Part shown: positions 28,184 to 62,652 of the stretch, one piece after another | How the letters are laid out: every line of letters starts with the position of its first letter | Position numbering within the stretch: the stretch's first letter is position 1 | DNA from: Fulvivirga sp. M361 | GTDB lineage: Bacteria > Bacteroidota > Bacteroidia > Cytophagales > Cyclobacteriaceae | Length of the DNA stretch: 64,000 nt | Reading direction: 5' to 3' | NCBI RefSeq assembly: GCF_007097395.1 | Contig: NZ_VKDC01000013.1 | Location: 62,001-126,000 of the forward strand | The notes under the pieces: generated by a model | The model's input: the letters and a program-made list of their open reading frames with translations, nothing else | Databases searched by the model: none | Told to the model about the DNA's origin: nothing | Translations under genes and position numbers: made by a program

Positions 28184-28193
28184 TTTTGCCCCA

Positions 28194-40633: not shown

Positions 40634-42814
40634 TTACTTATCTTCTTCTTTTATTTGGTCCCATTTCCAGTCAGGTTTAGTGACATCTGTCTCTACCTTT
40701 TCTGCCCGTACCCATGTCCGGAAGAAAGACCGCTTTCCTCCACTTTCTTTTTTCTCCGGTATGCCACCCTCCCTGTCCAGGTTCATGCTCATCCTTCGCT
40801 TCAGCGGCCGATCATCGGCGGTCATTTTACCATTATTCTTAACCTTTGGTATCGAAACTTCTCCAAAACTACTATGATCACCAATATGTACTAAATTGTC
40901 AATGTCATTATTGCTCAGTACTGTTCTCTCACGTTCTATGGCACGTATCTGGTTTCTATCGTACCTCGTATCCCCATCCTCAATATTTTCAAACACCCCT
41001 AGCCAACCCTGTGCGTCAAACCTTTCGTCATGAGGTAAATAGCTTTCGTAGCCCCAAAGATTTGTCCATCGCTTTTTCCATTTGTTATGTCCTTCTTTAT
41101 ACGTATCGTATTTGCTTTCATCCTGTTTCCTTAGATAAGTGTGTATATCACTTCCTTTTACTGTCCTGTGTTCCGTAGTGGGAGATGAGTGGTTGATGGT
41201 CTCATCGACGAAGGATACGTAACCATATTCTGGTACTTCTGCATACTCTATTATCCTTGGTTCGTCTATACCTTCCATTACCGATGCTCTGTCATCAAGG
41301 AACTCTCCCGGCAAACTCTTGGAAATATGGGCCATATGCTCCTCATTTTCCATGGGGTTAACAACATATTCCGGTCCCACTATCTTCTCCGTATTCAAAT
41401 AATTAAGGTTTACGAATAATGTATTCCCCAATGTGTCCTTATGAAATACATTATTGATACTTGGTCTGTTCCTGTAGTAATGGACCTCTATCACCACTTT
41501 CCACCCAGATTCGGCGATACCGCCAAAATCACTTTTTTGCAAATAGTCCAGTTGTCCTGCTTTTTCCATGGTGGACAATGTGTTGATCACGATCATTTCC
41601 TTCAGAGGGCCACCTAATAACTCATAGATCCCGCGCTTGACGGATCCCTTTCCCAGGTTAATGAACTTGCATGCATCTATTAATTCTTCAAAGCTGCCAA
41701 AGCTGCGTAATGGAGGTAATATGATGCCGCCCAGACATACCGCTGAATTATAATTTATGTTATTCATCAAAGACATTTCATCTATTTTCATTGTCTTTGT
41801 ATATATATCCTCGAGTCTGCTCTGTATTCCCTTAGCTAATTCTATATCCTGTTGACCTACTTTTGGTGCAACCATTCCTCGCAGCTCTTTGGTCGATTCT
41901 CCGTTTCGCTGGATTACCTTCTTTTGGCTTGTGTCCTTTACACTCGATAATTCTTCTTTTTGCCGTGATCCCTGATCAATCGACCCCTGCTTTGAGGCAA
42001 TAGCTTTTGTCCCCATTATATCCGCTTCATTCTCTAAAGCAACATCATCATTAATATTCACTTTGCCTTTCATCTGTAGGGTAGGTTCTACTCTACCTTG
42101 TTTTTGCTGCACCACGTGCCAGGCTTCATGAGGTAAGTGTTTTTCCTGACCTTTAGCCAAGTGAATATCTGTCCCCTGGGCGTAAGCACGGGCTTGTAAT
42201 TGAGCGGGCTTATCAGAGTTGTAATGCACCTTTACGTCGTCCATCGAATGGCCGGAGAGGTTTTCAATTCCGGATTTCAAATGATCCGGTAAACCTGTTT
42301 TATTTTCTTTTTTTGGAGTGGGTGATTGGGGTAAATCGCTTTCAATTCCGGTCAACGGTTTTTTTTGCACAGTGGTTTCCTGCCTGTTTGCCCTTTCCAC
42401 TAACTCTGCACCAGCATTGATCCGGACATTTTCCTCTGTTTTTTCAGTAGGTTTTGTGTGATTCTGCTTCCTTTGCACCACATTACCAGCTTCATCAGGC
42501 CAGTGTTCTGCCTGGTCAGGAGCAACGTGACTAGCTGTTGCCCATGCAAACGCACGAGCATTAAGTTCGGCGGGTTTGTCCGACGCGCCGGTGTCATTTT
42601 CTTTACGTTGAATGGTGTTCTGCCGGGACGCCAATTTCAGGGCCTGAAACTCTGGTTTCCCCGGACCACTATCTGCGGGTTCTGATTGCTTTTGAGCAGC
42701 TTCAGAATGACTGCTTTTAGACTGGAAAGAGCCCATTTTATCCTGCGTTTCCCTGGCCTGATGCATTGTAGTGCGACTTTGACTTTCCTGGTTTTTGTCT
42801 TCGTGGGTGTGCAT
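40634..42814 (-). CDS. DUF4157 protein, contractile-injection-system-associated type, possible toxin
   Basis: 726 residues, no signal peptide. The DUF4157 (eCIS core) motif lies at 201-239: DKPAQLQARAYAQGTDIHLAKGQ then HLPHEAWHVVQQKQGR, with metal-type histidines 229 and 233 around Glu230. A degenerate second copy occurs at 79-117. The first 190 residues are hydrophilic and low-complexity (many Q, S, K, E). Residues about 300-726 form a large domain that I do not recognise, rich in charged and aromatic residues. DUF4157 is enriched in cargo of extracellular contractile injection systems and in other polymorphic toxins, so the C-terminal region may be the effector. No tail, sheath or baseplate gene is in the window. 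Confidence 0.8.
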   Translation of the reverse strand: MHTHEDKNQESQSRTTMHQARETQDKMGSFQSKSSHSEAAQKQSEPADSGPGKPEFQALKLASRQNTIQRKENDTGASDKPAELNARAFAWATASHVAPDQAEHWPDEAGNVVQRKQNHTKPTEKTEENVRINAGAELVERANRQETTVQKKPLTGIESDLPQSPTPKKENKTGLPDHLKSGIENLSGHSMDDVKVHYNSDKPAQLQARAYAQGTDIHLAKGQEKHLPHEAWHVVQQKQGRVEPTLQMKGKVNINDDVALENEADIMGTKAIASKQGSIDQGSRQKEELSSVKDTSQKKVIQRNGESTKELRGMVAPKVGQQDIELAKGIQSRLEDIYTKTMKIDEMSLMNNINYNSAVCLGGIILPPLRSFGSFEELIDACKFINLGKGSVKRGIYELLGGPLKEMIVINTLSTMEKAGQLDYLQKSDFGGIAESGWKVVIEVHYYRNRPSINNVFHKDTLGNTLFVNLNYLNTEKIVGPEYVVNPMENEEHMAHISKSLPGEFLDDRASVMEGIDEPRIIEYAEVPEYGYVSFVDETINHSSPTTEHRTVKGSDIHTYLRKQDESKYDTYKEGHNKWKKRWTNLWGYESYLPHDERFDAQGWLGVFENIEDGDTRYDRNQIRAIERERTVLSNNDIDNLVHIGDHSSFGEVSIPKVKNNGKMTADDRPLKRRMSMNLDREGGIPEKKESGGKRSFFRTWVRAEKVETDVTKPDWKWDQIKEEDK
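42098..42580 (-). repeat. Intact and degenerate copies of the DUF4157 motif
   Basis: Codons 201-239 (42098-42214) and 79-117 (42464-42580) align without gaps: DKPA-x-L-x-ARA at the start and EAW/EAG-x-VVQ-x-KQ at the end. The degenerate copy has DEAGNVVQ in place of HEAWHVVQ, losing both histidines. Confidence 0.75.
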
Positions 42815-47589: not shown

Positions 47590-48129
47590 TTAATTGACCT
47601 TTGAATATGCTCCTGAAGAATACGTTAGCTCATAACTATGCGTATATATTTCGAAAACAACTCCGAAGGGGTCCTCTACATAGCACATTTTATAGGGTTT
47701 GTCCTCTGGGAAGTATGCTCTAATGGGCATTCTTTGCTTACCACCGTTGGACACAATCTTTTCTACTAACTCTTCTATGTTTGGATCTTGTACGCAAAAA
47801 TGAAAAAGTCCGGTATGAAAAGGGTTGAATTCAGGTGCTTTTTTAGCTTTACCAGGAAAGGAAAATAATTCAATTCCAATTCCATCTGATGTTGCCAGGT
47901 GTGCAATTTCAAATTCTTCCCAATCTTCGCCAAAAACATCAATGCACATTTGTCCAATAGCGGTATCCCTTTCTTTTTTCACTTTGGAAGGCCCCATAAT
48001 GATATACCATCCCATTACTTCTGAATAGAATTTTACGGCTTCTGTAATATTTGGAACAGTAATGCCGATGTGTGAAAATGATTTTGGATAATTTTTATTT
48101 AGCGTCATATCTTCTGTTTTGAAGTTCAA
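47590..48129 (-). CDS. VOC-family (glyoxalase/dioxygenase-like) protein
   Basis: 179 residues with two paired VOC modules: SFSHIGITVPNITEAVKFYSEVMGWYIIMGP and GLFHFCVQDPNIEELVEKIVSNGGKQRMPIR, ending FGVVFEIYTHSYEL. Metal-binding positions are suggested by His in SHIGI and Glu in VFEIYTH. The activity could be lyase, dioxygenase or resistance; the sequence does not say. An ATG at 48108 (MTLNKNY) is an equally good start. It diverges from an HxlR regulator across 97 bp that hold a dyad symmetry, so it is probably the regulated gene. Confidence 0.85.
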   Translation of the reverse strand: MNFKTEDMTLNKNYPKSFSHIGITVPNITEAVKFYSEVMGWYIIMGPSKVKKERDTAIGQMCIDVFGEDWEEFEIAHLATSDGIGIELFSFPGKAKKAPEFNPFHTGLFHFCVQDPNIEELVEKIVSNGGKQRMPIRAYFPEDKPYKMCYVEDPFGVVFEIYTHSYELTYSSGAYSKVN

Positions 48130-48162
48130 AATAGGAATATATTTACCTGAACAGCAATAACC

Positions 48163-48185
48163 TACTAAGAAGTTATATAGTAACT
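48163..48185. promoter_or_regulatory. Candidate HxlR operator
   Basis: Two nested dyads in the divergent promoter: TACTA (48163-48167) with TAGTA (48178-48182), and AGTTA (48171-48175) with TAACT (48181-48185). TACT/AGTA half-sites are known from some HxlR-family operators such as that of YodB. The link to the gene at 48227 is inference from position. Confidence 0.5.
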
Positions 48186-48226
48186 AAAAAGTGTAAAATA
48201 CTGTATTTCAATGAATTAAAATTCAA

Positions 48227-48538
48227 ATGAATAAAGATAATTATTGCCCGCTTAACCATACAATGAGTCTAATAGGCACAAAGTGGAAGCCTTTGGTCTT
48301 ATTTCATTTATTGGATGGGCCTTTGCGCTCTGGAATATTACAGAAGAAAGTACCCGGAATTTCAAATAAGATGTTTACCCAAACAGTCAGGGAACTAGAG
48401 AGGGATGGTCTTATTTCCAGAAGGGTTTTTCCCGTTGTTCCTCCCAAAGTGGAATATCAGTTAAGTGATAGAGGGGAATCGCTTGAGAATATTTTAAGGA
48501 GTCTGGATAAGTGGGGGTTAGAAGATAGTCCTGAATAA
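48227..48538 (+). CDS. HxlR-family transcriptional regulator
   Basis: 103 residues, the usual size. It starts with the family pattern CPLNHTMSLIGTKWKPLVLFHLLDGPLRSGILQKKVPGISNKMFTQTVRELERDGLISRRVFPVVPPKVEYQLSDRGESL, a winged helix with the N-terminal cysteine at residue 6 that in some relatives senses electrophiles or oxidants. It diverges from the VOC gene and probably controls it through the dyad between them. Confidence 0.92.
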   Translation: MNKDNYCPLNHTMSLIGTKWKPLVLFHLLDGPLRSGILQKKVPGISNKMFTQTVRELERDGLISRRVFPVVPPKVEYQLSDRGESLENILRSLDKWGLEDSPE

Positions 48539-48653: not shown

Positions 48654-49106
48654 CTAATTACCAACTTCTTTCCTCGTTGCGAGTAAAATGTGATCACACA
48701 CCAATACTACTTCATTCCGCTGATTGAAAACCTCCACATGCTCAACTACGGTACCCAGTTCAGGTTTTTTGGAGTCTGATTTTTCTGATATGGTTACCTC
48801 TACCCTTATCGTATCACCGATATGTACGGGTTTGATGAAGCGTAGTCTGTCGTATCCTTTTGAAAAAGCTTCGGGGTTGATTTCTGTGGCCGTCATGCCT
48901 ATGGCTACGCTGAAGGTTAGGGTGCCGTGCGCGATGCGTTGTTCGAAAGGTTGCGTTTTACACCATTCTGCGTCCATGTGATGCGGAAAAAAATCTCCCG
49001 TCTGGCCGGCATGTATAACAAAATCTGTTTCGGTAATGGTGCGCCCTAATGTTTTTCGGACAAATCCCATTTCATAGTCTTCAAAAAACTGTGATTTTAT
49101 ATGCAT
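48654..49106 (-). CDS. MaoC-family dehydratase (enoyl-CoA hydratase-like)
   Basis: 150 residues, single hot-dog domain. The MaoC active-site segment is [19 protein letters not shown], holding the usual Asp and His pair, followed by [15 protein letters not shown]. Such enzymes hydrate or dehydrate CoA esters. This is the last gene of an eight-gene operon that also includes two CoA-transferases, which fits a CoA-thioester step. An 84-bp gap separates it from the SDR gene. Confidence 0.88.
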
Positions 49107-49190
49107 AATTAGTCCTTATGTTTGATTGTGGAATCATTTAATATGGAGCTATTACATGCATAGCTCCATTGGTTTCAATAATAGCGGAAA

Positions 49191-49961
49191 TTATCTTCCC
49201 ATCCACCCTCCATCTACCAGCATAACAGCTCCGTGCATGTAAGAGGCTGCTTCAGAGCAGAGGAATACTGTTGGTCCGGCGAAATCTTCCGGCTGCCCCC
49301 AGCGTCCTGCCGGGATACGTCCAAGAATAGATTCTGCCCGTACAGGATCATTTCTTAAGGCTTCCGTATTGTCTGTGCTGATGTATCCTGGGGCTATGGC
49401 ATTGACATTGACACCTTTTCCTGCCCATTCATTGGCAAAAGCCATGGTTAACTGGCCTATAGCGCCTTTACTGGCAGCATATCCGGGTACAGTAATACCT
49501 CCCTGGAAGGTAAGCAATGAGGCTGTGAAAACGACTTTACCTGACCCACGAGCCACCATTTCTTTTCCAATCTCACGCGTAAGAATAAATTGTGCGTTTT
49601 GATTGACTTCTATTACTTTGTCCCACATGTCATCAGGATGTTCGGCGGCGGGCTTACGAAGAATGGTACCGGCATTATTCACCAGAATATCGATGACAGG
49701 GAAATCGGCTTTAGCTTCTGCGATGAATTTGTATAAAGCGTCCCGATCACTGAAGTCACAGGTATAAGCCCTGAAGTTTTTTCCTACACCCTTTACAGCT
49801 TTTTCTACTTCACTATCTTCTTTTTCCAGACTGGCGCTCACACCTATAATGTCTGCCCCGGCTTCTGCCAGGGCGATAGCCATTGCTTTACCAATTCCGC
49901 GTTTGCAACCTGTTACCAGGGCTGTTTTCCCATCTAATTGAAATTTATTGAGAATGCTCAT
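49191..49961 (-). CDS. SDR dehydrogenase, KduD-like (2-deoxy-D-gluconate 3-dehydrogenase type)
   Basis: 256 residues. Cofactor motif TGCKRGIG (17-24), NNAG (95-98) and catalytic Ser148, Tyr161, Lys165 in TASLLTFQGGITVPGYAASKGA. The whole chain resembles KduD, which interconverts keto-deoxy sugar acids with NAD. In this operon it probably oxidises a sugar-acid intermediate. It starts 32 bp after the zinc dehydrogenase. Confidence 0.88.
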   Translation of the reverse strand: MSILNKFQLDGKTALVTGCKRGIGKAMAIALAEAGADIIGVSASLEKEDSEVEKAVKGVGKNFRAYTCDFSDRDALYKFIAEAKADFPVIDILVNNAGTILRKPAAEHPDDMWDKVIEVNQNAQFILTREIGKEMVARGSGKVVFTASLLTFQGGITVPGYAASKGAIGQLTMAFANEWAGKGVNVNAIAPGYISTDNTEALRNDPVRAESILGRIPAGRWGQPEDFAGPTVFLCSEAASYMHGAVMLVDGGWMGR

Positions 49962-49993
49962 CTTTATTTATAGGTTAAATCTCTGTTGTATTG

Positions 49994-51010
49994 TTAAGAC
50001 TGACAGTCGAGAAGGTATTTCATACCGGCAGGATTACCTGCTATGGTCTCAAAAACCTGTTGGACATTTCCTAAAGGCTCTACCTGGGTGATCAACTTTT
50101 CAAAAGGTATGGTATGTTGAGAGATCATTTGAATTGATTCTTCATAATCTTCCGGCTCATAGACACGCGCACCAATCAGTTTCAGTTCTTTCCAGAAAAA
50201 CTGGAAAAGGTCAACATTTTTCGGCTCTCCATGGATCGCCACCATAACGATGCGCCCCCGAATGCCAGCAACTTTTGTCATCACGTCCAATGCAGGCTGT
50301 ACACCGGCTACTTCAAACACCACATCTGCTAATGAACCGCCGGTTTCACCTTCCACAAAGGTTACCAGGTCGGTTTTAGTTGGGTTGATTACTGTAAATC
50401 CCAGGCTTTCCGCCAATGCAATACGTGTCTCATTGACTTCGGAAATGATTACACGAGCGACCTTTTCTTTCGCCACCATAGCTACCAGTAAGCCAATTGG
50501 ACCACCTCCCAGTACCACTGCTGTCTCACCGGCAGCTACCCCGGCCATACGCACATCATGGCAGGCTACCGAAAGTGGTTCGATCAGTGCGGCCAGCTTC
50601 ATATCTATGGTATCCGGTAATTTGTGTAAAGTGAATGCCGGAACATTCCAAAAGGCTTGCATCGCACCCGGGCTATCGATGCCGATGAATTTCAGCTCTT
50701 TGCAAATGTGGCTGTATCCCTTGTCGCTGGGTTTTTCCGCGCGATTATCCAAAGGACGTACCACTACTTTTTCTCCTACGGAAAAATCATTAACACCTTC
50801 ACCTATGGCATCAATTTCACCGGACATTTCGTGACCTATGCTTTGAGGTATTTGCACTCGCTTGTCCATTGCACCATGGTAAATGTGTACGTCGGTGCCG
50901 CAAACGCCACAGTAAGCTACTTTTATTCGTACTTCACCGGCTTGTGGAGGTTCAATTTCCCTGTCCACTACTGAGAAGGTTTTATTGCCTTCATATAATG
51001 TTGCCTTCAT
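49994..51010 (-). CDS. Zinc-dependent alcohol dehydrogenase, MDR family
   Basis: 338 residues. Catalytic zinc ligands: Cys in YCGVCGTDVHIYHG and His-Glu in QSIGHEMSGEI. The nucleotide-binding motif is AVVLGGGPIGLLVAMVAKE. The four-cysteine structural zinc loop usual in this family (compare CGSCDACQSGKSNCC in the enzyme at 59648) is absent and replaced by VRPLDNRAEKPSDKGYSHICKELKFIG, so it is likely an MDR member without the structural zinc. Relatives oxidise sugars or polyols (sorbitol, L-threonine, galactitol phosphate). Confidence 0.87.
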   Translation of the reverse strand: MKATLYEGNKTFSVVDREIEPPQAGEVRIKVAYCGVCGTDVHIYHGAMDKRVQIPQSIGHEMSGEIDAIGEGVNDFSVGEKVVVRPLDNRAEKPSDKGYSHICKELKFIGIDSPGAMQAFWNVPAFTLHKLPDTIDMKLAALIEPLSVACHDVRMAGVAAGETAVVLGGGPIGLLVAMVAKEKVARVIISEVNETRIALAESLGFTVINPTKTDLVTFVEGETGGSLADVVFEVAGVQPALDVMTKVAGIRGRIVMVAIHGEPKNVDLFQFFWKELKLIGARVYEPEDYEESIQMISQHTIPFEKLITQVEPLGNVQQVFETIAGNPAGMKYLLDCQS

Positions 51011-51064
51011 ATCTAGAGGTATAGCTAAGTTGAATAATTATTTATCTGTTTTAAGGTATATTTC

Positions 51065-52141
51065 TTATCCTACATTAGGGTAATCAGGTTTTACGCCGCC
51101 TGCATCGCTCGAAGCATATGCCGCTTCCACTACGAGCATAGTGTTTAAAAGATCGTCTATGGAGGTTTCAAGCAGGTCGGATGAGCCCTCTACAAAACGC
51201 ATGAGTGATGACATGGTACCTATAAATGCATCAGGAAACCAGGAGCCTGGAATTTCAACAGTTTTCCATTCAGGCGCTTTATCCTCTTCTAAAATGCAGT
51301 ATTCAAACAGGTCTGGCTGACCCTCCGGGTAGTCCATCAAAAGGCCCATACGTGCATAAATAGAGCCTTTGGTACCTTCCCATTTTACATAACTTTCCTG
51401 GTGTTGCCGCCCGAAATTATGATCATGGTTTGTGCTCACCAGTGCACGCATGGCATCACCATATTCAAAAATCACATTGGTCCGGGTAGAAGACATCTTT
51501 TTTGCCGGATGCCGAACGGTTTTAGCCATTATAGAAGTGGGATTACCTAGAAACGATCGTACCAAATCGATATGATGGATGCTGTGTTGCTGGATTTCCA
51601 GCCGCGGATGATACATTACATTTGGAAAGATCTCCCAGGGAGTGTATACAGTTACACGTACTTCCATATCATATAATTCGCCAACGGCCCCTGAGTCTAT
51701 AATGCCGCGGGCGGCATTAATGAACGGAGCAAAACGTAGCTGACAGTTTACTGCTGCCACTAATTTCTTTTGCTTGCAGACTTCTATGATCTCCATCGTC
51801 TGCTCGTAGTAGTCGCCTAAGGGTTTTTGTATCAGCACAGGTGCTCCATCCGGCAGCTTTTTTAGTGTATCTACGAATTGACTGGGCATCAGGGTCAGGT
51901 CATATATGGCGTTTTCCGGAGCTTGCGCTACAGCGTCTTCCACGGTGTCGAAGACGCGTGGGATGTCAAATTTCTTAGCTAGTTTTCTGGCTCTTTCTTT
52001 TGTTCTGTTGGTAATGCCGTATACTTCAAAGCCTGCCTGACGATAAGCAGGTAAATGGGCATCATTTACGATCCCCCCGGCACCGATGATAACGATGGGC
52101 ATGTTAGTGTTAGGTAGTGTTTGCTCATATTTTAATTTCAT
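51065..52141 (-). CDS. Gfo/Idh/MocA-family oxidoreductase
   Basis: 358 residues from ATG 52141 (MKLKYEQTLP), which lies one base past the previous stop. The Rossmann start is MPIVIIGAGGIVNDAHLPAYRQAG; the family's EKP-like motif appears as VLIQKPLGDYYEQT, and a histidine-rich active-site segment reads LEIQQHSIHHIDLVRSFLG. These enzymes oxidise sugars or inositols with NAD(P). In the operon it is a plausible first oxidation step. Confidence 0.88.
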   Translation of the reverse strand: MKLKYEQTLPNTNMPIVIIGAGGIVNDAHLPAYRQAGFEVYGITNRTKERARKLAKKFDIPRVFDTVEDAVAQAPENAIYDLTLMPSQFVDTLKKLPDGAPVLIQKPLGDYYEQTMEIIEVCKQKKLVAAVNCQLRFAPFINAARGIIDSGAVGELYDMEVRVTVYTPWEIFPNVMYHPRLEIQQHSIHHIDLVRSFLGNPTSIMAKTVRHPAKKMSSTRTNVIFEYGDAMRALVSTNHDHNFGRQHQESYVKWEGTKGSIYARMGLLMDYPEGQPDLFEYCILEEDKAPEWKTVEIPGSWFPDAFIGTMSSLMRFVEGSSDLLETSIDDLLNTMLVVEAAYASSDAGGVKPDYPNVG

Positions 52142-52142
52142 G

Positions 52143-53393
52143 TCAATAGGTTTTATTGAGTTTCCATATTGGGTCAATTTGCTGCTGAGCGTTGTCTAAC
52201 AGCTTTTGTATATTTTTATCGGTATTGATCACGTCAAGTACCAATTGATCAATGATGGTGGCGATGTCTGACCAGTTGCTCATGCGTGGTAGTTCACGGG
52301 CATTCTGATGTAACTCCTCTAATTTGTGATAATAAGGTACCTCGGTGTTTACATCAGGGTCATGCCAGGTGGATTTGCGGCATCCTATACCTCCTTCCAT
52401 GGTCATCAGTTTATCGTTTGCCGGATTGACGGCAAATCGCATAAAATCATAAGCGACCTCTTTCTTTTTGCATCCCACACCAAGTGCGTACATCCAGTAG
52501 GCATTGAGCGATACTCCTTTTCCCGTTGGCCCGGCGGGTACATTAGTTATTTCTACTTTACCTTTCACCTTGGAATCCGGATGCACCTCACACATTGAGG
52601 CAAAGCCGAACCAGTTCACCATCATGGCCAGCTGACCTTCTGCGAATGCCATACCGGATTTTACAGAGTCAAATTCCCGGGAGTCAGGATGAATAACCTC
52701 CGTGTTTTGTAACATATCACGGTAGTATTGCATACCTTCCAAAGCCTGTGGAGAGTTGATTACGATGTGACCATCTTTTGTTAACAATTCGCCTCCACGT
52801 GTCCAGAGTTGCAGGCAAAAATCAAAGACAGTGTTATGGCCGTCAGGGTAGGCTGCGAAAACGGTTCCAAAGAGATTTTGCTTAGGCCGATGAAAAAAAG
52901 TGGCCACTTCTTTAAGCTCATCCCAGGTCCCGGGAACAGAAAGTTCCTTCCCGTATTTTTCCAGAAAGGTAGATTGCTCTTCTTCTGATTCGAACAGATC
53001 TTTACGATAGATCAAACACTCCGGACCGTCATGAAAGGGAAGTGCATAAGTACTTCCATCAAACTCTTGCATGCCAAGTAGGGAAGGGGCCCAGCCCGCA
53101 GGGAATTTTTCAGGAGAGTATCGTTTTATAAAAGGCGAGAGGTTTTCCAGGTGATTGTTTTCAACCGCTTCTGTAATCCAGTCCGTGTTAATAAAGGCTA
53201 TATCCCAATCACCGTTCTTAAGACCATTGTTTTTTAGAATGGTATCGTAAAGAGGGTGCAGGTCCATAGCTACTGCATCCAGTTCTAATTGACACCCCGA
53301 TTCCTTGCAAAATGCCTCCCAAATTTTTTCAATGGCAGATTCGAACGGATCAAATTTTCGTATAGCTATTCTGAATTTATTGCTGCCGGTCAT
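52143..53393 (-). CDS. Solute-binding-protein homologue without signal peptide (B)
   Basis: 416 residues with the fold pattern of extracellular carbohydrate-binding proteins of ABC importers: DWDIAFINTDWITEAVENNHLENLSPFI, YALPFHDGPECLIYRKDLFE, PGTWDELKEVATFF, ALEGMQYYRDML, FAEGQLAMMVNWFG and KKKEVAYDFMRFAVNP. The N-terminus MTGSNKFRIAIRKFDPFES is hydrophilic: no signal peptide, lipobox or membrane segment, and no upstream start codon would add one because the preceding gene ends one base before. The protein is therefore predicted cytoplasmic. No ABC permease or ATPase gene is nearby. Confidence 0.82.
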   Translation of the reverse strand: MTGSNKFRIAIRKFDPFESAIEKIWEAFCKESGCQLELDAVAMDLHPLYDTILKNNGLKNGDWDIAFINTDWITEAVENNHLENLSPFIKRYSPEKFPAGWAPSLLGMQEFDGSTYALPFHDGPECLIYRKDLFESEEEQSTFLEKYGKELSVPGTWDELKEVATFFHRPKQNLFGTVFAAYPDGHNTVFDFCLQLWTRGGELLTKDGHIVINSPQALEGMQYYRDMLQNTEVIHPDSREFDSVKSGMAFAEGQLAMMVNWFGFASMCEVHPDSKVKGKVEITNVPAGPTGKGVSLNAYWMYALGVGCKKKEVAYDFMRFAVNPANDKLMTMEGGIGCRKSTWHDPDVNTEVPYYHKLEELHQNARELPRMSNWSDIATIIDQLVLDVINTDKNIQKLLDNAQQQIDPIWKLNKTY

Positions 53394-53394
53394 T

Positions 53395-54540
53395 TTAATT
53401 CGCGATTAGTTCGTTCGTAATAGCTTTTGTGTGTTCTCCCAATGCAGGGGAGCCTACGGATGAAGTAAGCAGGTCGCCATCTATTTTTATAGGACACCGA
53501 GTGGTTTCATAGGTAAAACCATCTCCCATCGTTACGGGCTGGATCATATTAAGGACTTTGAAGGCTTCATGTTCCAACAGCCTGTGCCAGTCCATTACTT
53601 CTGCACACCAGATATCGGCAGGCTCCAGAACAGATAGCCACTTTTGTGTCGGGGCAGTGCGGAGGTGATCGGCCAGTATTTTTTTGATTTCGTCACGTTT
53701 TTCATACCAGCTTGCTACTTCGGTATAGTTTTTCAGGTCTGCGCACCCGAGGAGGTCACCCAGTACGGGAATAGCTCCCATAGCCAGCGCCAGAAAACCG
53801 TCTTGCGTCCTGTAAACCCCATAGGGAGCCCCAAGGTAGGCATGTGCGTTGTTAAAAGCTGTTCTCTCTGTAGGAGCTCCACCGTCATGATAGTAGGTGG
53901 TGATGGTTTCAAATTGGAAATCAAGGATTGATTCTAGCATGCTTACGCTCACCTTTGTACCTTGCTGTGACTTTTTACGGTGAACCAGTGCGGCCAAAAT
54001 ACCCTGGACCAAATGTGACCCTGAAAGGATGTCTACAATGGCCAACCCCATGGGCACCGGGCCTTTACCGGCATTACCACTGAGCCAGGTTAGTCCGGAG
54101 AGTGATTGCAAAAGCAGGTCCTGACCTGGTTTTTTAGACCAGGGGCCTTCTGATCCATAACCGGAAATTTCACCGTATACGATACCTGGGTTAATCTCCT
54201 TTACTGTTTCATAATCAAAACCAAGCCGCTCTATTACACCCGGACGAAAGTTATGCACCAAAACGTCTGCCCGGGCAATTAATTTCATGACCTTTTCTTT
54301 GTCAGCCTTTTGTTTTAAATCGGCTTGAAAGCTCTCCTTATTTCGATTGATTGCCTGGAATACGGAGGACTCATTATTTATGATGGTATTAGAGACATAG
54401 AGTGTACGACAAATATCCCCTGTTTCGGGCCGCTCAACTTTAATGACCCTTGCGCCAAGATCTGCCAGCCTCAGTGTGGCTGAGGGTGCGGATAGAAACT
54501 GACTGAGGTCTATAATCAATATATCTTCAAGTGGTTTCAT
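53395..54540 (-). CDS. CaiB/BaiF-family CoA-transferase (family III), second copy
   Basis: 381 residues from ATG 54540; a start at 54564 would overlap the upstream gene. Family III features: [83 protein letters not shown] and the segment [21 protein letters not shown] that holds the catalytic aspartate. Such enzymes move CoA between carboxylic acids. It is clearly paralogous to the next gene upstream and may form a mixed complex with it or act at another step. Confidence 0.88.
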
Positions 54541-54553
54541 TTGTTTTCTACCT

Positions 54554-55696
54554 TTATAAGCCAAATTCTCTCATTATATCTTCTGTGTGCTGACCGACTC
54601 TCGGAGCAGGTTTGGAGGCAAAGATCCGTTGGTCATTCAGGCGGATGGCACATCGGGTAGTGTGTACCTGTTCACCATTGATCAGGTTTAATTTCTGATC
54701 CATTTTCAGTACTTTGTAAGCTTCATGTCGAAGTAAATCGTCATAATTGAATACATCAGAAGCCCAGATCCCGGCAAAGTCCAGGACAGCCAGCCACTCG
54801 CTGGTTTTTTTCTCAGATAATACACCCTGAAGGATATCCATAATATCATCTCGTTGGGTGAACCAGGAGGACTTATCTGAAAATGCTGTTAACTCCTTGC
54901 AGTCAAGTAACTTTCCTAATTCTGTAAGTTCACCCATGGCCAATGCGATGTAACCGTCTTCCGTTTTATAGATGCCGTATGGAGCACTGAGGTAGGCATG
55001 GGCATTGCCTTTACTGGCACGCTGAGGTAGTTTTTTCCCATCGTTGAGATGGGTTGTGATCAATTCAAACTGAAAATCAAGCATGGATTCCAGCAGACTG
55101 ACCTCTACCAGGGCGCCCTGGCCCGATTTGCCGCGACGTATGAGGGCGGCTAAGACTCCGTGAACAAGGTGTGTGCCTGTGATAATGTCAGCTACGGCCA
55201 GACCGAATGGTGTGGGATCATCTTTTGCATCTCCGGACAAATTGACCAGGCCTGATAAGCACTGGACAAGCAGGTCCTGTCCTGGCTTCTTTGCCCATGG
55301 CCCTTCTTTGCCATAACCCGTGACCTCACCGTAAATTATCCCGGGATGGATCTTTTTCACTGCGGGATAGTCCAGGCCTATTTTTTCCATGACACCCGGA
55401 CGGAAGTTATGGGTCATAACATCGGCCTGGGTAATAAGTTTTTTCACTCTCTCCAGATCGTCAGGGTCTTTCAGGTTGGCTGTATAGGATTCTTTATTTC
55501 TGTTTACTGTGTGAAACACAAGACTGCTACCATCTACAAACAGGTTTTTGATAGCGATTTTTCGCCCTCCTTCGCCATGTGTTGGTCGCTCTATCTTAAT
55601 GACCCTGGCGCCCAGGTCAGCGAGGCGCAGTCCGGCAGAGGGGCCAGCCATGAATTGGCAAAATTCCAGTACAGTTATTCCTTCCAGTGGCTTCAT
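54554..55696 (-). CDS. CaiB/BaiF-family CoA-transferase (family III), first copy
   Basis: 380 residues. It has the same landmarks as the following gene: [78 protein letters not shown] and the catalytic-aspartate segment [21 protein letters not shown]. It starts 5 bp after the first binding-protein gene, so translation is tightly coupled. The two copies are similar along their whole length, consistent with tandem duplication followed by divergence. Confidence 0.88.
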
Positions 55697-55701
55697 CTTA
55701 A

Positions 55702-56862
55702 TTAATGTGGTTCATTCTTAGATTGACGATATAGTTTGTTCAAGTTTTCTAATAGCATTTTTTCTTCTCCTCCATGCATTAAATAGTCGCGAATGGGTGC
55801 TCCTGCACGGTCCTGGAAGTACATATGACCGTTGTAGCGTGGACGTAAAAAAGACCGGTCGAGTGCAGGTAATGTATTTTTGAAGAAATCCGCGCTCAGT
55901 GCATTTGTATTTTCATCCGTCCATGCCTGCCGGTGCCCGGGTTGTCCCCCGCCGTCAAAAAATACGGATCGCTGACATTCCGGAGAAGCTACGTATTCCA
56001 CATATTTCATCGCAGTGTCGATTTCCTTGCATTTGGCAGACACAGCCAGACCAGTGCCACCTAATGTGGAAATGGCTTTGCCTTTCCCTTTAATGTCTAT
56101 CATATCATGAAAGTGCAATGTTCTGCGGGCATAACCCTGACGACTGTAGTTGCTGTATCCGTAAGCCCATGGACAGTAGGCGAAACGATCTGTCAGGGTC
56201 ATGGCTTCATAAATATTGATCGGATTCCAGCCAAAGATCCGGGGGTCCATTTCAAGGGCCAGGGCACGCAGCATTTTTAACGCTTCCACGCCAATGGCAT
56301 TGCTTACCACCTGATCATCTTTTATACATACATCCTCCCCCAGGGTACAGCACATCATATAAAAGTTCATCAATGTATCCTGGGGAATGCCAGGCATGAT
56401 GACCAGGCCTTTTCTTGACAACCTCAATAAATCGTCATAATTCTCAGGGAGTGGTAACTCATTTTTCTTAAGTATGTCTGGCCTGCTGGCCGCTACAGGC
56501 GTAGCAGCATCGATTGCCAGTGCCCATTGATGTTCATTGGATGAGTAACTTTCGTGCGACCTTCCCACTGAATTTTTATCTAAATCGGCCATAAAAGCTT
56601 CAGAGAGATATTTGTCCAGCGGCAAAATGATATTGTTTTTAGCGGCGAATCCGGCCCATGGGTGGTCTATTACTAACAGGTCGTATCGCTCGGCCAACTG
56701 GTCAATGGGTTCGTCGGCAAATGCTTGTAGTGAACGTTTTTCCCAGTGAATCTCCACTTGTGGATTAAGTTCTGAAAAACGTTGCCCTGTGGCTACCATT
56801 GAAGTAAACCCGCGGGAGTGATTCCAGGTAATTCCCTTCAGTTTGATCTGATGATTGTTCAT
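55702..56862 (-). CDS. Solute-binding-protein homologue without signal peptide (A)
   Basis: 386 residues. Family features of sugar-binding ABC proteins: [113 protein letters not shown]. The N-terminus [19 protein letters not shown] begins directly with the first strand, so there is no export signal. First gene of the operon, 258 bp downstream of the AraC gene. It is only distantly like the second binding protein at 52143. Role unknown: cytoplasmic sensor, carrier or enzyme subunit. Confidence 0.82.
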
Positions 56863-57120: not shown

Positions 57121-57987
57121 TTAAACAAATCCGTGTACTTTACGGTACTGACCGGGAGCACAACCTACTTTTTTCTTAAATACACGACTGTAATATTGCT
57201 GACAACTGAAACCTGAGGCTTCGCTGATCTCTTTTTGTGTTTTAGTGGAAGTAAGTAGCAATAGCTGGGCCATTTCAATACGCTTATTGTTAATGTATTC
57301 AACAGGTAGCAGACCTGTAATGTGTTTGAACCGACGTGTAAAATGATCTGTTGAGTAACATGCGATCTCAGCCAGGTGCTCCATCCTGATTTCTTGTTTG
57401 AGGTGGGTGTGAATATATTTAAACACCTCCCTCAGGTGTGAGATTTGAGTGAAGTTGATATTAATTTCCTCTGTTTGTTTGATAAAACGTGAAAGGATCT
57501 GTCTGAGGATGCCGTTGGTTTCCAGCGCAGCAATACCATTTCCTTTGTAGAAAGATGAAGCTGCCCAGTTTCGTCTCTGATACACTTTTGGGTCGCTTTG
57601 GACTAATGCAGCGTCCTTATTTATTTTTACTAACCTATCGAAAAGTTGGTAATCAAGAGGGAGCGCTTTCACTTCATGGTAAAATGGTACGCTATCGAAA
57701 ATCTTCAAACCATCAGTGAGCTGATTGGTGAAATGGATATAATATTGTGAAAGTTTATCGTCAGGACAGCCATAGCTGCAATGGACATAGCTGGGAATAA
57801 GATATAGATGGCCGGGTTTGAGTTCATACCGTTGGTTATTTGGACAAATATAGCCGCCACCCTCAGTAATAAGGTATATTCTGGTAAATGGACTTACTAC
57901 ATTAGTGTAGTTCCAGCTTTTGTTCAACTCGCAATATGCAGTATTTAGCAGTTGTACTCTAAGTTCTTCTATAAGGTAGGGCACCAT
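57121..57987 (-). CDS. AraC-family transcriptional regulator
   Basis: 288 residues. The N-terminal cupin-like sensor has LYLITEGGGYICPNNQRYELKPGHLYLIPSYVHCSYGC; the C-terminal pair of helix-turn-helix units is at about 185-285: IRMEHLAEIACYSTDHFTRRFKHITGLLPVEYINNKRIEMAQLLL and KEISEASGFSCQQYYSRVFKKKVGCAPGQYRK. AraC proteins with this sensor usually bind a sugar. It is upstream of and in the same direction as the CoA-transferase operon, so it is the likely activator. Confidence 0.9.
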   Translation of the reverse strand: MVPYLIEELRVQLLNTAYCELNKSWNYTNVVSPFTRIYLITEGGGYICPNNQRYELKPGHLYLIPSYVHCSYGCPDDKLSQYYIHFTNQLTDGLKIFDSVPFYHEVKALPLDYQLFDRLVKINKDAALVQSDPKVYQRRNWAASSFYKGNGIAALETNGILRQILSRFIKQTEEININFTQISHLREVFKYIHTHLKQEIRMEHLAEIACYSTDHFTRRFKHITGLLPVEYINNKRIEMAQLLLLTSTKTQKEISEASGFSCQQYYSRVFKKKVGCAPGQYRKVHGFV

Positions 57988-58276: not shown

Positions 58277-59344
58277 ATGACACCAAATCCCATAGTAGGT
58301 ACAGGTTTACATGCCATAGGCGGTATATCCGCAGCTAGTTGTTACATGCCTTTTGAAAAGGTCAAACAATGGTCGTGGGAAGTCTTTTGGATCGTTCAGG
58401 CGCTTTTTGCCTGGCTCATCATGCCACTGGTTATAGGTTACTTTACTGTTCCTGATCTGTTTCTTGTACTTCAGAAAGCGCCTTCCTCTATATTCTGGTC
58501 AGCTTTTTTATTAGGCGCTACCTATGGTTTTGGCGGACTCTCTTTTGGATATGCTATACGTAATATCGGATACTCTCTTACCTATACGATCTCCATAGGC
58601 ATCTCTGCTGTTTTGGGTACGGTGATCCCTTTAATGCTCAATGGAAAATTAATTGAGCAGTTCACCCGACCTGGCGGTGGGATCGTTTTGGCAGGTATGC
58701 TTATATCCATAGTAGGTGTGGCCCTTTGTGGCAAGGCCGGATTTATGAAAGAGCGGTTTCTTGCTAAAAAATCCGGAGAAAAATCTTCTAATTTCAATAT
58801 GTCAAAAGGACTGCTGCTGACATTGATAGGAGGGACATTATCTGCTATATGGGGTGTATCACTTGAAGTAGGGCAGCCCATTTCAGATATCGCTGCGGAA
58901 CATGGCGCCGGGCACTTTGAAGGCAATGCCAAACTTATTGTTTCTTCTCTCGGATGCCTGGCTACTAACCTGGTATGGTTTTCAATAAGCACTATACGTG
59001 ACGGATCTATCAAACATCTTTTTACTACTAAATTGATAGGAGGGAAACAGTATGCAAGCAATTTTTCGTTATCGGCTCTGGCTGGTTCTCTCTGGTATAT
59101 CCAGTTCTTCTTTTATGGTGTTGGTCATGTGAGAATGGGTAGCTTCCAATTCACCAGTTGGGCATTACATATGTCAATGCTTATTTTCTTTAGTTATATT
59201 ATTGGTGTGATCATGAAGGAATGGAAAAGTGTAGATAAAAAGACGTATTCATCTCTTCTGGTGGCACTGGTTATATTGGTGATCTCTTTCGTGGTCATGA
59301 CTTACGGTAGCTATGTAGGAGAATTATCCAGTACCGGGCATTAA
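58277..59344 (+). CDS. rhaT: L-rhamnose/proton symporter-like permease, RhaT family
   Basis: 355 residues with about ten membrane segments and no signal peptide. RhaT-type landmarks: ISAASCYMPFEKVKQWSWEVFWIVQALFAW, LLGATYGFGGLSFGYAIRNIGYSLTYTISIGISAVLGT, GGTLSAIWGVSLEVGQPISD and YIQFFFYGVGHVRMG. E. coli RhaT imports L-rhamnose, and relatives take up other deoxy or sulfonated sugars. It starts opposite to the AraC gene with 289 bp between them. This could be the importer for the sugar handled by the operon at 48654-56862. Confidence 0.88.
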   Translation: MTPNPIVGTGLHAIGGISAASCYMPFEKVKQWSWEVFWIVQALFAWLIMPLVIGYFTVPDLFLVLQKAPSSIFWSAFLLGATYGFGGLSFGYAIRNIGYSLTYTISIGISAVLGTVIPLMLNGKLIEQFTRPGGGIVLAGMLISIVGVALCGKAGFMKERFLAKKSGEKSSNFNMSKGLLLTLIGGTLSAIWGVSLEVGQPISDIAAEHGAGHFEGNAKLIVSSLGCLATNLVWFSISTIRDGSIKHLFTTKLIGGKQYASNFSLSALAGSLWYIQFFFYGVGHVRMGSFQFTSWALHMSMLIFFSYIIGVIMKEWKSVDKKTYSSLLVALVILVISFVVMTYGSYVGELSSTGH

Positions 59345-59647: not shown

Positions 59648-60664
59648 TTAATTTAATACAGTAAGTACTTTGATCTCATTGGATTCAGGGCTTGCCCAAC
59701 CATCGAAATCTGTCAGGATCTTTTCAAAGGCAACTTCGCTGGTGATATAAGCTGTCGTGTTGAACTTTCCTTCCCTTAATACTTTCATTACAAATTCAAA
59801 GTCCTCCAAAGTAGCATTACGGCTGCACATTAGCGTTGTTTCTTTGGCATGTATAGCAGGGTGAGTAAACGTAAGGTCACCTTTGAAAAGGCCTACAAGT
59901 ACATAGCTGCCACCATGTTTCATATAGTCCGTTCCACCTTCGATAGCCTTTTTGCTTCCAGTGGCATCAAAAACAGTTTGGGCGAGGTGTCCTTCCGTAA
60001 TGGATTCTATTTGCTCTTTTGGATTGTTTAGGGCGTTAACTATGTGATCTGCACCAAATTGATCTTTTACCATAGCCAAACGATGTTCATTAATATCCAC
60101 AGCAATTACTTTTGCGCCAAGGTATTTGCACAGCTGGATAATACCAATACCGATGGGGCCGCACCCCATTACCACTACCGTTTCGCCTGTTTTGACATCA
60201 GCGCGCCTGATCGCATGAGCTCCTATCGCTAAGGGTTCTACAATGGCTATTTCATTGAGGTCCAAATCATTGGCTTTTAGTAGTAATCGGGTGGGAAGGG
60301 AGATAACTTCCTGCATACCACCATCCGTGTGTACTCCGAAAACCTGTATATTTTGACAGCAATTGGATTTACCTGATTGACAGGCGTCACAACTCCCACA
60401 GTTAATGTAGGGCATAATAACCGCCTTATCCCCTTTTTTTAAACCTTCCGGGTTATCGGATATTTCCAATATTTCTGTAGCCAGCTCATGCCCCAGTATC
60501 CTTGGGTAAGAGAAAAACGGCTGATTTCCTTTAAAAGCATGTAGATCTGTACCACATATACCTACTCTTTTTACGGCTAATAATGCCTCTCCCTCTGTAT
60601 TCTCAGGTTGTTCCCGGTGCTTTAATTCAAATTTCAAGGTCTTTTCGCAAACTATATACTGCAT
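59648..60664 (-). CDS. Zinc-dependent alcohol dehydrogenase, MDR family (deoxysugar locus)
   Basis: 338 residues from ATG 60664 (MQYIVCEKTLKFEL); a longer frame to 60811 would run through the LacI operator and gene and is rejected. Catalytic zinc site in RVGICGTDLHAFKGN and ILGHELATEI, complete structural zinc loop CGSCDACQSGKSNCC, and nucleotide motif VVVMGCGPIGIGIIQL. Sorbitol/galactitol/threonine dehydrogenase relatives. Divergent from the LacI gene with a shared operator; in the fuconolactonase cluster it probably oxidises a deoxysugar or its acid. Confidence 0.9.
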   Translation of the reverse strand: MQYIVCEKTLKFELKHREQPENTEGEALLAVKRVGICGTDLHAFKGNQPFFSYPRILGHELATEILEISDNPEGLKKGDKAVIMPYINCGSCDACQSGKSNCCQNIQVFGVHTDGGMQEVISLPTRLLLKANDLDLNEIAIVEPLAIGAHAIRRADVKTGETVVVMGCGPIGIGIIQLCKYLGAKVIAVDINEHRLAMVKDQFGADHIVNALNNPKEQIESITEGHLAQTVFDATGSKKAIEGGTDYMKHGGSYVLVGLFKGDLTFTHPAIHAKETTLMCSRNATLEDFEFVMKVLREGKFNTTAYITSEVAFEKILTDFDGWASPESNEIKVLTVLN

Positions 60665-60695
60665 TGTTTTATATTTAAAAGTGTGATTAAAGGAG

Positions 60696-60715
60696 TTGTT
60701 CAAACCTTTGAACAA
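60696..60715. promoter_or_regulatory. LacI operator 1 (perfect palindrome)
   Basis: TTGTTCAAA (60696-60704), CC, TTTGAACAA (60707-60715): perfect 9-bp arms in the 57-bp gap between the zinc dehydrogenase and LacI genes. The core TTCAAA/TTTGAA is repeated in operator 2. Confidence 0.75.
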
Positions 60716-60721
60716 ATATAA

Positions 60722-61747
60722 ATGAGCTTGAGAAAGAAAACAACTATTGTAGATATTGCAAATCATCTTGGTATAACCCCTTCGGCCGTATCCAAGGCTT
60801 TTAGCGGGCACCCAAGAATAAGCGATAAAACAAAAAAAGCTGTATTGGCTACTGCTGAGAAGCTGGGTTATCAGCCCAATTACCTGGCTACGGGGCTTAG
60901 AAAGGGTAGAAGTGGGCTGATAGGGGTGTTAGTGCCGGGAATACATTTGAGTTTTTTTGGTACGGTTATTAAAGCGATTGAAGAAACATTGGGTGAAGGC
61001 GGATATAATGTGATCATAGCCCAGTCACAAGACAGTCATGAAAAAGAGTCTGCACACCTGGAAGGGTTTATAAAAGCGCAGGTAGAAGGCATCATAGCTT
61101 CCGTAGCGCTTGATACCAGGTCTGCAGATCACTATAAAAGAATAGGAGCGCAAGTACCTGTGGTACTTTTTGACAGGACTTTGAGAGAGCTGGAAGTAAG
61201 CAAAGTGGTAGTAGATGATCATCTGGGAAGCGTCAAAGCGGTGGATCATCTTGTTTCCAAAGGATACCGTAAAGTGGCACATATAGGTGGTTATGAGCAT
61301 ATTGAGCCATTTAGATTACGTATACAGGGGTACAGGGAAGCATTGGATAAACATAACCTTGACGTGCCGGAAGAATACCTAAGGCAGTGTAAATTAACCA
61401 TTACAGATGGTAAGGAGATTATGTGTGATCTGCTGGATTTGCCCCAACCACCGGACGCTATTTACGCCGCCAGTGATCTGCCCGCTTATGGCGCTTTGAC
61501 CGTGCTAAAAGAGCGGGGATACAAAATTCCGGAAGAATTTGGGATAGTTGGCTTTAGTAATGAAGCGTATACATCCATGGTAACTCCTACCATTACCACT
61601 ATGGAGCAACATACCGAGAATATAGGTTTACTGGCTGCTAAATCAGTCATGGACCAGCTGGACCACCTCTATCATGGAAAAGAGTATATACCTCAACAGA
61701 ATGTACTTACTCCGAAATTAATTGTCAGGGATTCCACCAATCGCTGA
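60722..61747 (+). CDS. LacI-family transcriptional regulator
   Basis: 341 residues. Helix-turn-helix at the N-terminus: TTIVDIANHLGITPSAVSKAFSGHPRISDKTKKAVLATAEKLGYQPNYLATGLRKGRSGLIGVLVP, with the hinge helix typical of LacI. The C-terminal part is the periplasmic-binding-protein-like effector domain (GIIASVALD, VVLFDRTL, VVVDDHLGSVKAVDHLVSKGYRKVAHIGG, PDAIYAASDLPAYGAL, GIVGFSNEAYTSMVTPTITT). The two flanking palindromes suggest that it controls itself, the zinc dehydrogenase and the lactonase-permease genes. The inducer is probably a deoxysugar or its lactone (inferred from neighbours). Confidence 0.93.
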   Translation: MSLRKKTTIVDIANHLGITPSAVSKAFSGHPRISDKTKKAVLATAEKLGYQPNYLATGLRKGRSGLIGVLVPGIHLSFFGTVIKAIEETLGEGGYNVIIAQSQDSHEKESAHLEGFIKAQVEGIIASVALDTRSADHYKRIGAQVPVVLFDRTLRELEVSKVVVDDHLGSVKAVDHLVSKGYRKVAHIGGYEHIEPFRLRIQGYREALDKHNLDVPEEYLRQCKLTITDGKEIMCDLLDLPQPPDAIYAASDLPAYGALTVLKERGYKIPEEFGIVGFSNEAYTSMVTPTITTMEQHTENIGLLAAKSVMDQLDHLYHGKEYIPQQNVLTPKLIVRDSTNR

Positions 61748-61821: not shown

Positions 61822-62652
61822 ATGAAGGTAATAGATGCACATCAGCATTTCTGGAATTATGACCCTGCGGTACACACCTGGATGAGCGAACAGATGGACG
61901 TGATCAAAAAAGATTTCACCCCTGATCTGTTAAAGAAAGAACTGGAAGCTCATGATGTTAACGGATGTGTTGCGGTTCAGGCAGACCAGTCGGAAGATGA
62001 GACTATGTTTCTGATCGAACTGGCACGATCCAATGAATTTATCAAAGGTGTGGTAGGTTGGGTGGACTTGCAAAACAATAAAATAGAAGAGTATTTGTCT
62101 CGGTATGTTGATGAGCCTGTTGTTAAGGGTTTTAGACATGTGGTGCAGGACGAGGCCGACCCTGAGTTTATGCTGCGCAAGTCATTCCAACATGGTATAT
62201 CCGTATTAGGAGACCATGATTTTACGTATGACATTTTGATCTTTCCAAAACAACTTACTGCTGCTCTTCAGCTTGTACTCAATTTTCCTAACCAACCCTT
62301 TGTCATAGACCATCTGGCGAAACCTGATATCCGTGATCATGAGATGGGTCAATGGCAAAAATACATGTATGAGTTAGGCAAACACGACCATGTTTATTGT
62401 AAAATAAGTGGTATGGTCACCGAAGCAGATTGGCATGGCTGGAGCTATGAGGATTTCCTGCCCTACCTGGATAGTGTGCTGGAGGCGTTTGGACCACAAC
62501 GGCTTATGTATGGTTCAGATTGGCCTGTTTGCCTGTTGTCAGCTACTTATGGAAAGGTAAAGCATATCGTAGATCAGTACATTTCAACGTTATCATCATC
62601 GGAGCAATCTTTGATCATGGGAGAAAATGCCATCAAATTTTATCAATTATAA
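61822..62652 (+). CDS. Amidohydrolase-type sugar lactonase, L-fuconolactonase-like
   Basis: 276 residues of the COG3618 group. Metal-ligand histidines 7 and 9 are in IDAHQHFWN, and further conserved segments are VKGFRHVVQ, PFVIDHLAKPDI, VYCKISGMVTEADW and LMYGSDWPVC. Relatives hydrolyse L-fucono- or L-rhamnono-lactone to the acid in oxidative deoxysugar catabolism. A FucP-like permease follows 42 bp downstream, which favours L-fucose. The dehydratase and aldolase steps are not in the window. Confidence 0.88.
   Translation: MKVIDAHQHFWNYDPAVHTWMSEQMDVIKKDFTPDLLKKELEAHDVNGCVAVQADQSEDETMFLIELARSNEFIKGVVGWVDLQNNKIEEYLSRYVDEPVVKGFRHVVQDEADPEFMLRKSFQHGISVLGDHDFTYDILIFPKQLTAALQLVLNFPNQPFVIDHLAKPDIRDHEMGQWQKYMYELGKHDHVYCKISGMVTEADWHGWSYEDFLPYLDSVLEAFGPQRLMYGSDWPVCLLSATYGKVKHIVDQYISTLSSSEQSLIMGENAIKFYQL

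Follow-up and report, generated by a model that had tools for sequence, protein, structure and literature searches.

Signal-less sugar-binding proteins encoded beside class III CoA-transferases in a Fulvivirga operon and its relatives, with gene neighbours that point to 6-deoxy-L-sugars

Described systems and the Fulvivirga operon

The subject of this analysis is an operon of Fulvivirga sp. M361 in which two proteins of the ABC-type solute-binding protein (SBP) family, SBP1 and SBP2, are encoded together with two class III CoA-transferases, CaiB1 and CaiB2, and four further enzymes. It lies in a stretch of 64,000 nucleotides (contig NZ_VKDC01000013.1, positions 62,001 to 126,000), here called the window, to which all coordinates refer. 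In the carnitine system, the class III CoA-transferase CaiB is paired with the crotonase-type CaiD. To our knowledge there is no binding-protein partner in the carnitine or mesaconate systems or for benzylsuccinate CoA-transferase, and no CoA-transferase link for enzymes derived from SBPs; one of the latter, cyclohexadienyl dehydratase, comes from an arginine-type SBP lineage, unlike the sugar SBP_bac_1 lineage. Carnitine CaiB-CaiD and mesaconate Mct-Mch (PMC5592240) resemble the Fulvivirga operon in that a class III CoA-transferase comes ahead of a crotonase- or MaoC-type hydratase, and the catalytic Asp is kept here. The present loci differ in having two CaiB paralogs, sometimes fused, that are tied to apparently cytoplasmic binding-protein folds and to sugar genes. 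Benzylsuccinate CoA-transferase (PDB 9fn0, chains A and B of which differ in sequence) is alike in being a class III enzyme with two different subunits, but its substrate is aromatic.

On the sugar side, the closest described system is the non-phosphorylating L-fucose pathway (FucM, FucA, FucB, FucC, FucF and FucG; PMC11199699), in which a mutarotase, a dehydrogenase, a lactonase and a dehydratase are followed either by an aldolase or by a short-chain dehydrogenase/reductase (SDR) and a hydrolase. Non-phosphorylating routes for L-fucose and L-rhamnose have also been inferred in marine SAR202 (PMC10444878). The window locus shares with the L-fucose pathway a symporter, a lactonase-type amidohydrolase, an SDR and dehydrogenases, but it shows no L-fuconate dehydratase or FAH hydrolase and has in addition the CaiB pair, MaoC and two binding proteins. 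The SDR of the pathway is a 2-keto-3-deoxyfuconate dehydrogenase; that of the window locus, best matched by KduD models under their cut-off, may have this role or another. SBP1 and SBP2 have the fold of CUT1-type sugar ABC binding proteins (TMBP 1eu8, SmoF, MalE3), from which they differ in that no export signal was found, there is no permease partner, and the genetic partner is a CoA-transferase. As in cyclohexadienyl dehydratase (PMC7683729), a binding-protein fold would have been recruited to metabolism.

The source genome (8.1 Mb, 148 contigs, 97.6% complete) carries the locus on contig C35 of the assembly. Pfam and NCBIfam profile scans of the window's open reading frames (ORFs), with some small ORFs outside the scan, bear out the eight minus-strand genes described in the original prediction. 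The first gene of the operon encodes SBP1 (55702..56862, 386 aa, SBP_bac_1 at 42 Pfam bits against a cut-off of 26). It is followed by CaiB1 (54554..55696, CoA_transf_3 at 321 bits over residues 4-371), CaiB2 (53395..54564, 320 bits over residues 12-379) and SBP2 (52143..53393, 416 aa, SBP_bac_1 at 105 bits, same cut-off of 26). Next come a Gfo/Idh/MocA oxidoreductase (51065..52177, listed start TTG, with an in-frame ATG 12 codons later), a Zn-dependent dehydrogenase (49994..51010), a KduD-like SDR dehydrogenase (49191..49961; KduD models of NCBIfam score best, at 323 bits, under their cut-off of 338.85) and a MaoC-type hydratase/dehydratase (48654..49106, PF01575 at 81 bits). The predicted spacing of mostly 1-15 bp holds from SBP1 to Gfo: at these four junctions the genes stand 1-13 bp apart or overlap slightly, according to which start codon is taken. 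It does not hold downstream, where the gaps are 54 bp (Gfo to Zn-dehydrogenase), 32 bp (to the SDR) and 84 bp (to MaoC). The same gene order was found again in Persicobacter and many Bacteroidota.

Pairing of SBP1 with CaiB across genomes

At least 568 relatives of SBP1 were confirmed by genome scan, and the best 80 were examined as loci (full 10-kb flanks in 70 of them). In all 80, the next recognised gene after SBP1 is CaiB, at a gap of at most 529 nt. The CaiB part consists of two ORFs in 72 loci and of one fused ORF in seven, and in one locus it lies on a cut contig. At the SBP1-CaiB1 junction the median is a 4-nt overlap (73 pairs, longest-ORF starts). Two architectures account for most of the set, as called with profiles built from the loci themselves at score thresholds of our choosing: type I (52/80), with SBP2 and Gfo and, in 48 of the 52, MaoC; and type II (23/80), with a crotonase and an aldehyde dehydrogenase and without SBP2. 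Five loci are of neither type.

These 80 loci come from the nearest relatives, many of them in Pedobacter and Hymenobacter, and whole-genome draws from the order, phylum and class were therefore made to avoid this bias. Counting the source genome itself, SBP1 occurs in 17 of 291 genomes of the order draw and 19 of 395 of the phylum draw; outside the source genome, CaiB lies within 1.5 kb in 20/20 and 17/18 of the loci, respectively. The class draws show it in 6/10 loci, or 4/8 without two centre genomes. The reverse search, with CaiB2 against 72,556 plasmid records (E 1e-60), matched 124 records. Among the 60 matches listed, an SBP1 position was at hand for 41, and in 38 of these it is within 200 bp; of the other three, two (Persicobacter) are at about 1.2 kb and one (Jannaschia) at 4.5 kb. 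In one of the Persicobacter records CaiB1 sits between SBP1 and CaiB2. The 41 records are far from independent because 34 are Sinorhizobium/Ensifer, the others being Persicobacter (2), Roseibium, Labrenzia, Rhizobium, Jannaschia and Shinella. Seven of the 19 listed records without an SBP1 position were looked up: five have an adjacent SBP1, one has it two genes apart and one has no adjacent SBP1. The CaiB-SBP1 pair is also present on pSymB of Sinorhizobium meliloti 1021, at about 731.3-733.6 kb, and in Streptomyces ITFR-6 two genes separate SBP1 from CaiB. Adjacency outlasts changes of order, which include SBP1-CaiB, CaiB-SBP1 and SBP1-ECH-CaiB. Chance neighbourhood can be rejected because the pairing persists in the even draws of genomes and when the search starts from CaiB, and the conserved association that had been proposed as a check on the original prediction is thus present well beyond the window. 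Among the open-licence PMC papers that the literature searches listed, none gave an account of SBP1-CaiB pairing. Each of the component families is known, but as far as could be seen, signal-less sugar-binding proteins have not been described in combination with class III CoA-transferases.

Two further copies of SBP1 are found in the source genome at other loci, in the order SBP1-crotonase-CaiB (L030 on G000:C105 and L031 on G000:C80). In Tamlana agarivorans, two type II loci (L112 and L120) have the order SBP1-CaiB-CaiB-crotonase-ALDH near the conserved families c51, c52 and c55 and a Zn-dehydrogenase; these neighbours may be a set for 6-O-methyl-galactose demethylation.

The catalytic-type Asp is kept in every aligned CoA-transferase (Asp170 in 73/73 CaiB1 rows and Asp178 in 73/73 CaiB2 rows), and on the basis of alignments we take it to be the equivalent of Asp169 of formyl-CoA transferase. 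The top solved relatives of the two proteins include SUGCT, YfdE and formyl-CoA transferases, and both proteins match the two-subunit benzylsuccinate CoA-transferase 9fn0. The seven fused forms are single ORFs of 792-835 aa, all in Hymenobacter (L068, L071, L073, L074, L078, L085 and L127). Because of these fusions and of the match of both proteins to a two-subunit enzyme, CaiB1 and CaiB2 most likely form a heterodimer.

Cytoplasmic character and origin of the binding proteins

Export signals were sought with a scan of start codons (ATG/GTG/TTG) and hydropathy, counting the residues ahead of a conserved N-terminal motif. In the window SBP1 the earliest such start is 7 residues ahead of the motif, and the first strand of SBP2 begins at residue 6 of its predicted model. 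Among 114 SBP1 ORFs, some of which repeat one gene between loci, 95 have at most 14 residues ahead of the motif and hence no room for a signal peptide. The other 19 have a top 11-residue hydropathy mean of 0.95, except for L048 (1.56), a 742-aa frame whose annotated start is just ahead of the motif. Of the SBP2 relatives, 47/53 begin within 3 residues of the window SBP2 start. As far as sequence can show, SBP1 and SBP2 are thus ABC-type sugar-binding proteins that remained cytoplasmic, and the predicted lack of signal peptides agrees with what was found.

It could still be argued that SBP1 and SBP2 are ordinary binding proteins of an ABC importer, with a missed export signal or a permease encoded elsewhere, given that their fold and Pfam family are typical of such proteins. 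We regard this as very improbable. Besides the start-codon scan, the source genome supplies its own controls: it has six SBP_bac_1 matches, of which four (SBP1, SBP2 and the two SBP1 paralogs) are signal-less with CaiB nearby, whereas the remaining two (C67, C2) have, as judged by eye, lipoprotein-like N-termini and stand beside permease-like genes. Where an ABC importer is present at the locus, as in Labrenzia, Shinella, Qingshengfaniella, Nitratireductor and Martelella, it has a separate SBP of its own. By eye these SBPs bear a signal, apart from that of Nitratireductor, whose start is annotated too far into the gene for a judgement. ABC permease matches occur in just 3/80 near SBP1 loci, and no ABC import permease or ATPase was present among the window ORFs scanned, as had been predicted. 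Both a hidden signal peptide and a distant permease are disfavoured by these observations, and the view that the binding folds of this operon are not explained by transport is upheld by their cytoplasmic appearance and their conservation with CoA-transferases.

The structures predicted for SBP1 (pLDDT 96) and SBP2 (pLDDT 92) have 1eu8 as best structural match. The SBP1 model is a sugar-binding-protein fold, and the structure-search matches listed for the two proteins are transporter binding proteins, with no enzyme among them. In phylogenetic analysis, the SBP1 relatives form a single clade (support 100/99) and SBP2 a separate one, against a single domestication of both. Two separate recruitments are likely, but no firmer conclusion is drawn because the deep forks that put ABC proteins between SBP1 and SBP2 are weak (85/73 and 83/64) and long branches were flagged. 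Relatives of SBP1 carry annotations such as extracellular or ABC solute-binding protein; one in Rhizobium sp. Q54 (L204:5191-6348, 460.7 bits) has been given the name "putative integral membrane protein".

Sugar context, candidate pathway and significance

Upstream of the operon is a minus-strand gene for an AraC-family regulator (57121..57987), a position repeated in the relative locus L051, and divergent from it, 0.3 kb from its start, is a plus-strand gene for a RhaT-family sugar-proton symporter (58277..59344; Pfam/NCBIfam). Profile scans further identify a second Zn-dependent dehydrogenase (59648..60811, minus strand) and a LacI-family regulator (60722..61747, plus strand). An L-fuconolactonase-like amidohydrolase (61822..62652, plus strand) has as its sole NCBIfam match at E 1e-20 the model NF052480 for L-fucono-1,5-lactonase (289.4 bits, cut-off 400). 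Beyond the window edge are FucP, just outside it (L159:695-2017, TIGR00885 at 551.7 bits against a cut-off of 280.4), an aldo/keto reductase, sulfatases, a GH43, a GH29 alpha-L-fucosidase and a hybrid two-component regulator. The divergent RhaT, the amidohydrolase, and the FucP and fucosidase beyond the window had been overlooked in the original prediction.

Across the loci, FucP or RhaT is near 52/52 type I loci and mostly absent from type II. A transporter always beside the locus had been set as a challenge to the non-transport view; type I does have one, but type II mostly does not, and symporters need no binding protein. Rhamnosidases (GH78 or GH106) are found in 34/52 type I loci. In the Alphaproteobacteria, as annotated, Labrenzia has MaoC-CaiB-SBP1 with amidohydrolase, L-rhamnose mutarotase, Gfo, MaoC, SDR, L-fuconate dehydratase and FAH, a nearly full non-phosphorylating L-fucose set; Shinella has CaiB-SBP1 with L-rhamnose mutarotase, Gfo, MaoC, SDR and L-fuconate dehydratase; and Martelella has amidohydrolase and mutarotase followed by Gfo-CaiB-SBP1-MaoC. 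L-fucose and L-rhamnose are both on a published carbon-source list for S. meliloti (PMC4207669). An enolase-type dehydratase is missing from the window locus, all nine MR_MLE_C matches in the genome lying on contigs other than C35, and FucI (PF07881) and RhaA (PF06134) have no match in this 97.6%-complete genome, with RhaI-type isomerase outside the search. The gene neighbours point to 6-deoxy-L-sugars of the L-fucose/L-rhamnose type as the probable substrates. It is nevertheless conceivable, if unlikely, that the module acts on something else (L-galactose, a methylated or sulfated sugar, an agar sugar) and that its fucose and rhamnose neighbours are coincidental. The operon is near porphyranase-like, sulfatase and GH2 genes, and rhamnosidases are in 0/23 type II loci, but L-fucose/L-rhamnose genes recur in both Bacteroidota and Alphaproteobacteria.

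The comparative finding is a strong one; the mechanism is a proposal. We tentatively favour, at rather less than even confidence, a reading of the operon as a CoA-dependent branch of 6-deoxy-L-hexose-acid breakdown in which the CaiB pair and MaoC act and the binding proteins present the substrate. The pathway would be intracellular and non-phosphorylative, and its substrate L-fucose, L-rhamnose or a close relative. Uptake would be by the RhaT/FucP symporters, whose families are established by profile and whose specificity is presumed. Gfo or a Zn-dehydrogenase would oxidise the sugar to a lactone, which the amidohydrolase would open to the sugar acid, and CaiB1/CaiB2, most likely one heterodimer, would transfer CoA to this acid, as their family and invariant Asp suggest. 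MaoC, or the crotonase in the type II architecture, would then take water from C2-C3 of the sugar-acyl-CoA, the step carried out elsewhere by an enolase-superfamily dehydratase. SBP1 and SBP2 would most likely assist the CoA-transferases as partner proteins that close around the sugar acid or lactone and present it. The order of CaiB followed by MaoC or crotonase is an economical reading because a CaiB-family transferase and a MaoC-family hydratase are proven to act in sequence on mesaconate (PMC5592240). The original interpretation is partly borne out. Its prediction that the operon oxidises a sugar, makes a CoA ester and dehydrates it fits the neighbouring genes, which point more precisely to L-fucose/L-rhamnose-type sugars; the substrate and the activities would still be those suggested by family and context.

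Several observations weigh against this reading. CaiB is absent within 1.5 kb of SBP1 in 4/10 class-sample loci (4/8 without the two centre genomes), and it is lacking from the 11-20 kb examined around L145, L146, L147, L154 and, in Microvirga, L045. All five of these CaiB-less loci have an MR/MLE-type match, found in just 1/80 of the near, CaiB-bearing loci, a contrast that speaks in favour of the reading, and L147 also has an FAH hydrolase. A further SBP1, that of G1106 (L196:1976-10990), has no CaiB in its stretch, though one may lie elsewhere in that genome; its neighbours are an L-rhamnose isomerase match (503 bits, under cut-off), IclR and a bifunctional rhamnulose-1-phosphate aldolase whose match is over cut-off. 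That SBP1 is always with CaiB is contradicted by the Microvirga, distant MR/MLE, class-sample and G1106 loci. SBP1 is not a CoA-transferase accessory everywhere, and its function has no strict need of a nearby CaiB; it follows the catabolism of L-rhamnose/L-fucose more widely than it follows CaiB. Conversely, a Halostagnicola CaiB (37.6%) has no adjacent SBP1. It is found with Gfo, IclR and a gene of the mandelate racemase family, and at a distance of 2.9 kb there is a gene, cut by the stretch end, whose annotation is sugar ABC SBP. Several alphaproteobacterial loci hold CaiB/MaoC together with MR/MLE or L-fuconate dehydratase, so the idea that CaiB/MaoC simply replaces MR/MLE is weakened and cannot be the whole story. 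No SBP1-CaiB fusion, looked for as proof of a complex, occurs in the 80 loci, and the window locus showed neither an aldolase nor an FAH hydrolase, an FAH being present elsewhere in the genome. Finally, type II loci have other gene neighbours, as do the two paralogs in the genome, so a single substrate is not assured.

SBP1, and perhaps SBP2, could instead be a free-standing enzyme on the 6-deoxy-L-sugar, its lactone or its acid, of mutarotase, lactonase, epimerase or dehydratase type, with CaiB doing a neighbouring step. This option, not considered in the original prediction, is a close rival, in our view somewhat less probable than the presenter reading. The conservation of SBP1 is enzyme-like: 26 columns are invariant across 40 rows with identity down to 25%, and several of them sit right behind strands that line the cleft in this fold (DSSP on the model). 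Conserved positions are W13-x-H15-x-R17, D66-H67-P68, D118, G268-G269, Q307, W314 and R340. SBP1 is also the element shared by CaiB loci, MR/MLE loci and loci with phosphorylative genes, and the evolution of cyclohexadienyl dehydratase from an arginine SBP provides a precedent (PMC7683729). On the other hand, we recognise no catalytic motif in SBP1, position 15 varies (His is replaced by Asp in L144 and by Asn in L154), and the structural matches are to transporter proteins, though these exclude nothing. The tight two-way linkage to CaiB is moreover less expected of a free-standing sugar enzyme.

An improbable further option is that SBP1 and SBP2 sense or buffer the sugar or sugar acid inside the cell, acting with IclR, AraC or LacI regulators and outside catalysis. 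IclR genes are found in 40/80 loci, in many on the strand opposite SBP1, and the window locus has AraC and LacI; however, different lineages have different types of regulator and yet keep CaiB, it is unusual for a sensor gene to overlap or abut an enzyme gene as SBP1 does, and each operon carries two different binding proteins.

Elsewhere in the window, a glyoxalase-type protein and a divergent HxlR regulator (47590-48538), between the operon and an MRJP-type protein, seem to be a separate small unit. An algal-polysaccharide block (24978-37558) encodes porphyranase-type domains with a T9SS sorting tail, GH43-CBM6, two GH2 and a sulfatase. A protein with an eCIS core domain (40634-42814, PF13699, 40 bits) is possibly the cargo of an extracellular contractile injection system, and a 1019-aa ORF (17563-20622) has an ABC ATPase, an ABC-2 membrane domain and a TerB domain in one frame.

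To return to the CoA-dependent reading, the system could, with confidence again short of even, represent a new CoA-transferase holoenzyme in which class III subunits are joined by domesticated sugar-binding proteins as substrate-capturing or catalytic subunits. It would serve a CoA-thioester route for 6-deoxy-L-sugar acids across Bacteroidota, Pseudomonadota and Actinomycetota, replacing or paralleling the enolase-superfamily dehydratase step. If the binding proteins are partners of the CoA-transferases, or enzymes, a transport fold would have been recruited for intracellular sugar chemistry. Many "extracellular" or "ABC solute-binding" annotations, among at least 568 relatives of SBP1, would then mislead, and a CoA-dependent step of L-fucose/L-rhamnose breakdown would be missing from pathway maps.

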